Part shown: one piece after another, positions 26,215 to 39,101 of the stretch
Layout of the letters: each line of letters begins with the position of its first letter
Numbering within the stretch: position 1 is the stretch's first letter
Origin: Candidatus Saccharimonadota bacterium
GTDB taxonomy: Bacteria > Patescibacteriota > Saccharimonadia > Saccharimonadales > Saccharimonadaceae
Direction: 5' to 3'
Length of the DNA: 41,604 bases
Assembly: GCA_017511925.1 (NCBI GenBank)
Contig: JAFWHS010000013.1
Span: 1-41,604 of the forward strand
Program-made: the position numbers and the translations under genes
The notes under the pieces: model-generated
What the model was told of the DNA's origin: nothing
Databases searched by the model: none
Seen by the model: only the letters and a program-made list of their open reading frames with translations

Positions 26215-29012
<2,798 letters not shown>

Positions 29013-36071: not shown

Positions 36072-36854
36072 TTACCTCAAATATTTTACTGCTTCGCTTG
36101 CTGCCACTGCACCATCAGCCGCCGCTGTCACCAGCTGACGCAAATCTTTTGTCCTACAGTCCCCCGCTACAAAAACACCCCGACAAGACGTATGGCAATC
36201 TTCTTCAGCCACTATATAACCATCTCTGTTTAATTCCACCAATTCAGAAAAAATCCTTGTATTTGGTACTCGCCCAATCGCTACAAATACCGCCACCGCA
36301 TCCTCCGGCACCGGATCATCGTGATGAATATGATAAACTTTTGAAGCAATATTTTCTAAATACTTTATCTCATGTTTTGCCGTGTTTCCACTCCCCACCA
36401 CGACCACTGGCTTATCTTTATAAAGAGTACCGTCACAAGTGGCACAATACGAAATCGGCCTCTCGCCCACATCCTTCATTTGCTTTTCACTCAACTTCCT
36501 CGGCTCCGTACCTGTCGCAATAATTATCGCACCGCATGAATATTCAGAATCGTCAGTTTTTACCCAAAAACCAGAAACTCCATCTTTACTATCCCTATTA
36601 TGCGAAACTTCGATTACCTCTTCATACTTAACTTCCGCACCGAAATTATTCATCTGGTGATATATTTTTTGCGAAAATTCCTCCCCAGACACCCCTGGAT
36701 CACCTGGCCAATTCGCAATACTAGAAGTATTAACAATTTGCCCACCGCATATCTTATTTTCCAAAACTAAAACAGACTTCCCGGCACGACTCGCATAAAT
36801 CGCCGCCGTCATCCCAGCAACCCCCGCCCCGATAATAATCACATCGTAATTCAT
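36072..36854 (-). CDS. trxB: thioredoxin-reductase-like flavoprotein with shortened NADPH domain
   Basis: The 260-residue protein has the FAD-binding start IIIGAGVAGMTAAIYASRAG, IIATGTEPRKL, the redox pair C137/C140 (CATC) and the C-terminal FAD block GVFVAGDCRTKDLRQLVTAAADG. The NADPH part begins with VVVVGSGNTAKHE, but after HIHHDD the sequence jumps straight to DAVAVFVAIGRVPNT. About 50 residues are missing compared with E. coli TrxB, including the HRRxxxR that binds the NADPH phosphate. The frame is intact. Electron donor uncertain. TATAAT (36866-36861) ends six bases before the ATG. Confidence 0.88.
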   Translation of the reverse strand: MNYDVIIIGAGVAGMTAAIYASRAGKSVLVLENKICGGQIVNTSSIANWPGDPGVSGEEFSQKIYHQMNNFGAEVKYEEVIEVSHNRDSKDGVSGFWVKTDDSEYSCGAIIIATGTEPRKLSEKQMKDVGERPISYCATCDGTLYKDKPVVVVGSGNTAKHEIKYLENIASKVYHIHHDDPVPEDAVAVFVAIGRVPNTRIFSELVELNRDGYIVAEEDCHTSCRGVFVAGDCRTKDLRQLVTAAADGAVAASEAVKYLR

Positions 36855-36867: not shown

Positions 36868-36943
36868 CATAAGATTGTTTACTCTCGGGAGTGCTCAAGG
36901 CCGCTAGGCCAAGCTTCACTCCCTCAAGTTAAACAATCTTATG
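36868..36943. repeat. 76-bp palindromic element between rnj and trxB, copy 2
   Basis: Outer arms CATAAGATTGTTTA (36868-36881) and TAAACAATCTTATG (36930-36943) pair at 14 of 14. After a small internal loop, GGGAGTG (36887-36893) pairs with CACTCCC (36917-36923). Inside lies the 23-base core (36894-36916), starting CTCAAGGCCG and ending AGCTT, with GGCC/GGCC. The core matches copy 1 in ligA at 20 of 23 positions, while the outer arms are unrelated. It could also act as a terminator or processing hairpin for rnj. Confidence 0.88.
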
Positions 36944-36944
36944 T

Positions 36945-39101
36945 TTATACCTTATTAATTACAGGTATCACAATCGGCGTATGACCAGTGGCGTCAAAGA
37001 GAATATGCGTAATATCTTCCTTGATCTCTTCCTTCAATACCTTCATCTCTGGATCAGTAGAAATAGATTTATCCGTTTTTTGTCTGAGATAATGACGAAT
37101 CTTTCCAATCAACTCCTCAGAATTATCAAGATAAATAAATGCACGCGACACGATATCTGGCGTCTTCATCAAATGCCCAGTTTTCTTATTTAAAGTCAAA
37201 ACAATCACAAAAATGCCTTCACGCGAAATATGAATCCTATCCTTCACTACTGCTTCATGTACCGGTTGATCAGCATCATCATACAATTTGTTTCCTACCT
37301 GGATCCGCCCACTCTTACGAATGGTCTTATTTGGCATAAGTTCCACGATATCGCCATCATCAGACACCAAAATCCTCTCCCTAGGTATACCTAGTACATT
37401 TTCCGCCATCTCAGCATTATGTTCAAGCATGTAAAATTCACCATGGTAAGGCATATAATTCGTTGGGTGAAGCCTCGTCACAAATTCCACATGATCTTCA
37501 TAATAAGCATGTCCCGAAAGATGCAAAGGCCCAATATTCGTAAGGTGCGTCTTACCATTTTGAATTACCTGCGCACCCTCGCGGAGTAGCCCATCCACCG
37601 TCGAAACCACATGTGGCTCATTGCCAGGAATTGGGTTAGATGAAAACACTATCGTATCCGTAGATTTTATCTTTATATACTTATGCGCCCCTGTTACCAT
37701 TCTATTCAAAACTGCATTCAGCTCGCCCTGAGACCCAGTGCACACAATACAAACTTTATCGTCCGGAAGTTTAATAATGTCTTCCATTTTCATGATCGTG
37801 TCTTTTGGTACTTTAATGGACTTCGCACGCAAAGCCACTTCTACGTTATTGATCATCGAAAATCCTGAAAACGCTACTTTACGCCCCCTAGCAGCTGCCT
37901 CTTTCAAAATCAATTCAATACGCAAAATTTGCGAAGAAAAGCACGAAATAATCACCCGGCCATTCGCATAATGATCCATCACGCGACCCAAATTTTCACC
38001 CACATCATACTCAGAATGCGGATGTCGCCCAGGCGAATCAATATTAGTAGACTCATTCAACATCAAATCTACACCTTCTTTTGCCACAATTTCATCTATC
38101 CTGGCGTAATCAGTCTGAATTCCCATTGGCTTTTCCTCATGACGCCAGTCGCCAGAAAGATAAATCAAGCCATTTGGTGTCCTCACCACTATCGCCGCAT
38201 TCCCAGGAATAGAGTGCAAAGTATGAATAAATTCCACTGATAAATGCTCAGAAACCTGGATTTTCTCATGTTTAAACGGATCTACCACCTGATAATTCAT
38301 TTCTGGCACATCTTCAAGCTCGCTCATCTGTTTCTTGATCATCCCTATCGTAAAATCAGTTGCATAAATCGGCGTCAAATGCGAAAATTTCGGCAAAAGA
38401 TGCCTACAAGCCCCAATATGATCAAGGTGCGCATGAGTAAAACAGATCGCTTTCACCTTGTCACGATTATCTTCAAGATATTTAATATCAGGTATCATGT
38501 AATTTACACCAGGATAATCTTCCCCCGCAAACAACACTCCCATATCCACCACTATCATCTCTGACTTATATTCTATAATGGTCATATTTTTACCAATACC
38601 AAACTCGCCCACGCCACCGATCGGAATAACCCTCACCGCTTCCGGATCCGGACGCATCTGCTTCAACTTAGCATTAGTCACTTGCTCACCACCATAGCCA
38701 TTGTAGCGAGATTTATTTACCGGCACTCCTATAATGTGCTGCGTAGCCTGCGCATTTACATCTTGAGACAACATTCTCTGGTGATGTACCATATCGCCTT
38801 TTTTCACTGATACAGATAGATTCACCTTTCTCTTTTCAGCCTCCTTTTTTGCACCCTCCTTTGTGGCTTTTGCACTTTTACCTGCAGCCTTTTTGCCATT
38901 AGAGGCATTTTTTACCGCTTTTCCAGCGTTTTTGGCTTGACTAGGCTTACTAGCCACCAATTTCGCATCCTTGCCTCCAGGGGCAAAATTTGAGTTAAAA
39001 TTCCGTTTTTGCGCTTCTTCAAACTGCCTTTTTATATCTGGTAAACGCTCAGCCCTAGACTGTAAAAGCCGCGCACGACGCTCTTCCTCTCTTAAATTCA
39101 T
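36945..39101 (-). CDS. rnj: ribonuclease J
   Basis: RNase J is a metallo-beta-lactamase/beta-CASP enzyme with 5' exo- and endonuclease activity in mRNA decay and rRNA maturation. The 718-residue protein is long because of an N-terminal extension of about 150 residues, rich in Lys/Ala/Asn (about 45-90), probably disordered and RNA-binding. The catalytic core starts at RVIPIGGVGEFGIGKNMTIIEY. It holds HAHLDHIG, LHSIPGN, SGDWRHE, FSSNPIPGNE and HLSGHAYYEDH, with HPTNYMPYHGEFYML, all family motifs. The start has AAGGAAA as SD and a TTGAAA-17-TATAAT promoter. No RNase E is in view. Confidence 0.95.
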   Translation of the reverse strand: MNLREEERRARLLQSRAERLPDIKRQFEEAQKRNFNSNFAPGGKDAKLVASKPSQAKNAGKAVKNASNGKKAAGKSAKATKEGAKKEAEKRKVNLSVSVKKGDMVHHQRMLSQDVNAQATQHIIGVPVNKSRYNGYGGEQVTNAKLKQMRPDPEAVRVIPIGGVGEFGIGKNMTIIEYKSEMIVVDMGVLFAGEDYPGVNYMIPDIKYLEDNRDKVKAICFTHAHLDHIGACRHLLPKFSHLTPIYATDFTIGMIKKQMSELEDVPEMNYQVVDPFKHEKIQVSEHLSVEFIHTLHSIPGNAAIVVRTPNGLIYLSGDWRHEEKPMGIQTDYARIDEIVAKEGVDLMLNESTNIDSPGRHPHSEYDVGENLGRVMDHYANGRVIISCFSSQILRIELILKEAAARGRKVAFSGFSMINNVEVALRAKSIKVPKDTIMKMEDIIKLPDDKVCIVCTGSQGELNAVLNRMVTGAHKYIKIKSTDTIVFSSNPIPGNEPHVVSTVDGLLREGAQVIQNGKTHLTNIGPLHLSGHAYYEDHVEFVTRLHPTNYMPYHGEFYMLEHNAEMAENVLGIPRERILVSDDGDIVELMPNKTIRKSGRIQVGNKLYDDADQPVHEAVVKDRIHISREGIFVIVLTLNKKTGHLMKTPDIVSRAFIYLDNSEELIGKIRHYLRQKTDKSISTDPEMKVLKEEIKEDITHILFDATGHTPIVIPVINKV

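Follow-up and report, generated by a model that had tools for sequence, protein, structure and literature searches.

A 76-base palindrome in a Candidatus Saccharimonadota genome is one copy of a hairpin family with hundreds of copies in related genomes, in one genus of Saccharibacteria (tiny parasitic gut bacteria) and in Bifidobacterium. The family, whose copies often lie in frame in essential genes, appears to be selfish DNA that had gone unrecognised. The copy is probably (probability about 0.6) a non-autonomous selfish hairpin that resembles the Rickettsia palindromic elements (RPE) and is moved, in the form of a folded single strand, by an enzyme acting in trans.

The window analysed is the whole 41,604-nucleotide stretch of contig JAFWHS010000013.1 (assembly GCA_017511925.1). 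Its GC skew is very strong, about -0.2 to -0.35 throughout. The right end carries 5S and 23S rRNA, and several tRNAs lie in the window. Strand C denotes the strand that carries the core as first noted, and strand F denotes its complement.

The palindrome and its insertion site

The palindrome CATAAGATTGTTT...AAACAATCTTATG and its core were confirmed at the positions in Table 1. The copy folds much better than dinucleotide shuffles (z about -7 to -8), and no U-tract lies beside it. It forms an ~80-bp insertion between an RNase J family gene and a trxB-like gene. Among the 30 best-matching loci read, the element is at this junction in this genome only, and six relatives (G034, G003, G107, G071, G143, and G189) have ~10 nt between the stop and trxB; the copy is therefore an insertion in this lineage. 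Two relatives (L457 and L458) have an unlike short perfect hairpin, AAATGAAATGGAA...TTCCATTTCATTT, downstream of RNase J at the same junction.

A sequence-only reading of this DNA had linked the palindrome to a similar one in ligA. The two cores are identical at 20 of 23 positions (the exceptions are 11, 13, and 18), and both have CTCGG five bases 5′ of the core. With three or fewer mismatches allowed, the core has exactly 2 matches in the window, against 0.00 expected. The similarity stands with one small correction: the cores lie on opposite strands, antisense to the flanking RNase J and trxB genes at this site and sense in ligA.

Table 1. Features of the palindrome, its flanking genes, and the ligA copy in the window
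Feature	Position	Strand	Basis
Reported copy, subtype GGGAG/CTCCC	36868..36943	core strand +, folding strand F = -	sequence, covariance model, fold
Left arm, copy-specific, pairs with 36926-36943	36868..36884	+	fold, arm alignment
TC of the conserved TC/TC mismatch; tandem GA/GA on strand F	36885..36886	+	profile over 112 copies
GGGAGTG, 5′ side of inner stem, pairs with CACTCCC at 36917-36923	36887..36893	+	sequence, fold
Near-invariant 23-nt core, CTCAAGGCCGCTAGGCCAAGCTT	36894..36916	+	pattern searches, alignment of copies
Right arm, copy-specific	36926..36943	+	arm alignment, fold
RNase J family gene, end adjoins element	36945..39101	-	named from sequence
trxB-like thioredoxin reductase gene, start just past element	36072..36854	-	named from sequence
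ligA copy, in-frame insertion encoding about 31 residues; core 27716-27738 (-)	27681..27773	-	sequence, orthologues
ligA, NAD-dependent DNA ligase, bears the in-frame copy	26215..28275	-	named from sequence and family knowledge

Copy number and distribution

The sequence-only reading would have been refuted had the genome contained these two copies and no others, which is not the case. The 832-kb genome has 13 pattern matches for the core and 0 for a reversed control. Covariance model R1 gave 14 strong and 2 weak matches. The genus was surveyed with one genome per species at E 1e-8 or better; 97 of 174 species had matches, with 1–21 in each genome that had any, and 77 had none at that threshold. 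Across the class, the core was found in 30 of 295 genomes, all in this genus, one of 128, and none was found in the other 127 genera. No copies were found in 24 genomes from other families of the order.

The exact core was also searched across bacterial and archaeal species, with one genome each. All of the matches listed fall in Bifidobacterium or in Candidatus Saccharibacteria, the latter largely genomes from gut and rumen. Eleven of 12 Bifidobacterium genomes checked carry 2–42 copies of a longer 35-nt centre, with 42 in Bifidobacterium santillanense. No Rfam family reached its gathering score over the copies. No earlier report of the element was found in the literature searched, which is not proof of absence.

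Anatomy of the hairpin

A centre of ~41 nt is nearly invariant. Its strand C consensus over 112 distinct Saccharibacteria copies is TC GGAC ACR CTCAAGGSCGYTCGSCC RAGCTT AYG GTCC TC. Outward from the centre, Saccharibacteria copies have a pyrimidine/purine stem, three free pairs, AAW/WTT, and a free outer arm. The paired arm beyond the TC mismatch has a median length of 20 bp (quartiles 19–23). Bifidobacterium has the same centre on arms of 28–29 bp, and the whole element is about 93 bp there and about 80 bp in Saccharibacteria. Arm G+C content tracks the genome, at 39% in Saccharibacteria and 61% in Bifidobacterium, and the centre is 63% in both. Arm sequence varies from copy to copy, and complementarity is kept. 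The original description of unrelated arms that still pair, made from two copies, holds over 112.

Copies in genes and empty sites

Of 114 Saccharibacteria copies, 75 lie inside long, mechanically called ORFs, 40 with strand C as sense and 35 with strand F. The genes that carry copies in this genome are ligA and those that we take, from sequence and established knowledge, to be tsaD, an RluB-type pseudouridine synthase gene, mnmA, miaA, and prmC. In Bifidobacterium most copies lie between genes, frequently where two genes converge or after the end of a gene.

In many congeners the ligA site spans about 9 residues, and a filled copy adds about 25 amino acids with the frame kept. Among the species shown, four have a copy in the same orientation, two have a reversed copy, and five have a different, larger hairpin. 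Arm changes are mirrored in ligA orthologues. In tsaD, a filled copy adds about 26 amino acids relative to empty orthologues, again in frame; this hairpin type is found in G000 (this genome), G081, and G177, and the larger type in G088. Such filled and empty sites bear out the suggestion of a dispersed, mobile-looking palindrome.

The larger hairpin has a centre with two sub-hairpins, one with loop CCCGTCGYYACGGG, and is found at these ligA and tsaD sites in other species. It was seen in L028 (1501–1600), L029, L050, L052, L103–L106, L165, L169, and L445 (18800). There are 24 copies in Saccharibacteria loci, oriented 17:2 to the G-rich strand. In L165 and L169 it fills a second hot spot for insertion in tsaD, near HHLKSH. 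Matches of many congeners break near tsaD residues 122–130. In G014 (L109), the ligA site is taken up by EYD-type repeats in frame, EYDFSSPEYDGESSEYDSGLAEYDF, and not by a hairpin.

The folding strand

Arm mismatches differ between the strands. On strand C, A.C mismatches (G.U on strand F) outnumber G.T mismatches 69:33 in Saccharibacteria (p 5e-4) and 43:16 in Bifidobacterium (p 6e-4). Cytosine deamination would predict the reverse bias, because the DNA strand on which C mostly lies is strongly enriched in G. The TC/TC mismatch of strand C is a tandem GA/GA on strand F. In an alignment of 53 F strands, 95.5% of cells pair and 14 pairs have changed on both sides. Columns 27 and 42 are U.G in 39 of 53 copies and C-G in 13. 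Columns 34 and 45, which join the terminal loop to an internal loop, are GC in 29 copies, AU in 23, and GU in 1, and are unpaired in none of the 53; another possible partner for column 45 fails to pair in 16. Strand F is the folding strand, the one whose fold is maintained. The mismatch asymmetry and the covariation of columns 34 and 45 are evidence for one specific folded strand, either RNA or single-stranded DNA.

The covariation on strand F supports the earlier proposal of selection on hairpin structure with compensating arms. From the three options then offered (mobile palindrome, protein-binding hairpin, or RNA element), the mobile element is favoured, and the folded strand is opposite to the core that had been noted.

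An alternative is that the hairpin is a cis element useful to the host, such as a terminator, an mRNA-stabilising hairpin, or a processing site selected in transcripts. The strong folds and the placement of most Bifidobacterium copies between or after genes would suit such a role. It is nonetheless unlikely, as two thirds of Saccharibacteria copies are inside ORFs in both orientations, 77 of 174 congeners had no copy at the threshold used, and the reported copy lacks an adjoining U-tract. The F fold is also kept in copies in genes whose mRNA carries strand C, where A.C and G.T mismatches stand at 29:7. mRNA structure in cis was rejected as contradicted by the strand of the mismatches.

Pairing could also arise from mutation and not selection, if template switching during replication grew or corrected palindromes in place. 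The mirrored arm changes of the ligA orthologues fit this process, and flips of core orientation at one site would come easily by it. We consider it improbable: arm length is fixed rather than open-ended, the unpaired positions of the centre and the 34–45 loop contact are conserved, and symmetrical correction does not predict strand-asymmetric mismatches.

Orientation to replication

By local GC skew, strand C is on the G-rich strand in 88 Saccharibacteria copies and strand F in 7, with 19 ambiguous (p 6e-19); this count includes some orthologous, non-independent copies. The ratio of C to F on the G-rich strand is 35:0 and 21:3 (F-sense genes) in genes read either way, and 32:4 between genes. 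Saccharibacteria copies are oriented to the replication fork, not to transcription. With a window skew of about -0.25, the reported copy, with its core on the plus strand, goes against this rule, and the ligA copy follows it. No orientation bias was seen in Bifidobacterium (6:11), where skew is weak.

The 88:7 bias would be expected of a replication-oriented chromosomal signal resembling KOPS, Chi, or uptake sequences and kept for its orientation. Genomes have only 0–21 copies, however, and many congeners have none; Bifidobacterium shows no bias, a long folded stem is needed, and essential genes are interrupted. A signal of this kind is very unlikely.

Origin of the arms

Copies within one Saccharibacteria genome rarely have arms in common. 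Bifidobacterium arms have a weak consensus, with greater likeness within a genome than between genomes. Most simply, all copies descend from one ancestral hairpin, arms included, and have since accumulated compensating changes. Construction of the arms from target sequence, suspected from the mirrored ligA arms, was rejected on the fixed arm length and on the relatedness of Bifidobacterium arms within genomes.

The arms, fixed in length, specific to each copy, and well paired around a constant folded loop, also recall hairpin small RNAs whose arms are guides or spacers aimed at other sequences. In a comparison with 435 kb of their own genome the arms matched essentially nothing else, most Saccharibacteria copies lie within genes, and the weak within-genome consensus of Bifidobacterium arms is what diverged copies would have. 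A guide function has accordingly a very low probability. TIGR arrays, which occur in parasitic bacteria, were rejected since the elements are mostly single dispersed hairpins and not guide arrays.

Recent duplicates with the same arms are rare, except for a long-armed type found in several copies in G117. Given so few arm-sharing duplicates, most copies may be old. The long-armed version, TAAATGGGG...GCGCGAC centre GTCGCGC...CACCCATTTA, was seen in L002 (about 1450–1575) and L199–L202. It occurs as near-identical repeats in G000 and four times in G117, with differing flanks, and is possibly the most recently mobile form.

Some flanking features were also recorded. In Bifidobacterium santillanense (L410–L429), constant sequence lies just beyond the arms, GYGDCC on the left and TCCGTT on the right, and may mark the true element ends. 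Similar 190–270 bp repeats with the element lie near contig ends in G161 (L404–L407), where a longer multicopy repeat may carry it. Several Bifidobacterium genomes have inverted pairs of copies about 120–210 bp apart, and a cluster of full and partial hairpin copies follows dnaE in Bifidobacterium erythrocebi (L268, 6800–7160).

Candidate mobilising enzymes

The sequence-only reading had suggested a search for a gene of the REP-type transposase (RAYT) kind. The RAYT domain Y1_Tnp (PF01797) was detected in 8 of 170 congeners; the other 162, this genome, and all 12 Bifidobacterium genomes gave no match. RAYT was rejected as the mobiliser on its absence from this genome and all 12 Bifidobacterium genomes. 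REP or BIME palindromes moved by RAYT are thus the least probable explanation, despite the dispersed palindromes and the spacing of the Bifidobacterium inverted pairs; neither copies in frame within genes nor free arms are characteristic of REP.

Reverse transcriptases are present in 95 of 170 congener genomes, and RVT_1 was not found in the element-rich genomes G009, G017, G062, and G082. A reverse transcriptase was rejected as a general mobiliser because it was not found in several element-rich genomes and is not required; it may be supplied from elsewhere. A search for phage, plasmid, or viral contigs carrying the element gave no match.

Proposed mode of spread

No transposition or excision event was seen in the comparison of genomes, one per species. 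As a selfish hairpin, the element would spread as strand F, in the form of RNA or single-stranded DNA, and an enzyme provided in trans would recognise it by its folded centre and the length of its stem. The strand would be joined into DNA at replication forks, the probable entry point. Insertions in genes would survive only if in frame in tolerant protein loops, and the arms would then drift with compensating changes. The invariance of the centre suggests continued recognition. We infer that the element has passed between the Saccharibacteria genus and Bifidobacterium, a pair that may be epibiont and host. A further reading, possible although doubtful, makes the hairpin a new kind of mobile element, a folded strand of RNA or single-stranded DNA that requires no more than a conserved folded centre and a stem of set length, enters DNA at replication forks, and moves between an epibiont genus and the actinobacteria that neighbour or host it.

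Palindromes inserted in frame in essential genes have been described from Rickettsia, Wolbachia, and an archaeon, and to our knowledge their spread is unexplained. The mechanism of spread becomes testable here, as the family has hundreds of copies, sites that are empty in relatives, a folded strand that is defined, and an orientation bias to replication. The element links the genomes of one Saccharibacteria genus to those of Bifidobacterium and so offers a lead to the hosts of uncultured gut Saccharibacteria. The short peptides that it adds to conserved enzymes matter for annotation.

Comparison with known systems

Like MITEs, the elements are short, non-autonomous, multicopy, and palindromic. 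They appear to differ from MITEs in having no constant terminal inverted repeat across copies, and no parent transposon was found; arms are copy-specific, yet the long-armed L002 type has constant arms in several copies. They share with REP and BIME sequences the form of small dispersed palindromes, in inverted pairs in Bifidobacterium, and differ in having no RAYT gene, a long stem of fixed length and variable sequence, and frequent location in coding frames. Extragenic location is a REP/BIME criterion, and 75 of 114 Saccharibacteria copies are in ORFs.

Integron attC sites are folded single strands with unpaired bases and a stem that is largely free in sequence but paired. The element has a similar folded single strand and sequence-free paired stem, a likeness that draws on general knowledge of attC and serves as a lead only. 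Its variable part is at the base of the stem and not the tip, and there is no cassette arrangement.

The palindromic elements of Rickettsia and Wolbachia are dispersed in the reduced genomes of parasites, lie in frame in unrelated housekeeping genes, and are typically found in unstructured protein segments (PMC10969869, PMC2996958). The element differs from RPE in its length, about 80 bp against about 150 bp, in arms whose sequence varies freely while pairing is compensated, in the tertiary loop contact of one strand, and in its orientation bias to replication. It is also shared with a free-living actinobacterial genus, where most copies lie between genes. The likeness to RPE lies in shared features: a repeated palindrome is in frame in several unrelated genes (75 of 114 copies in ORFs), and in ligA and tsaD the site is empty in relatives and the frame is kept through the insertion.
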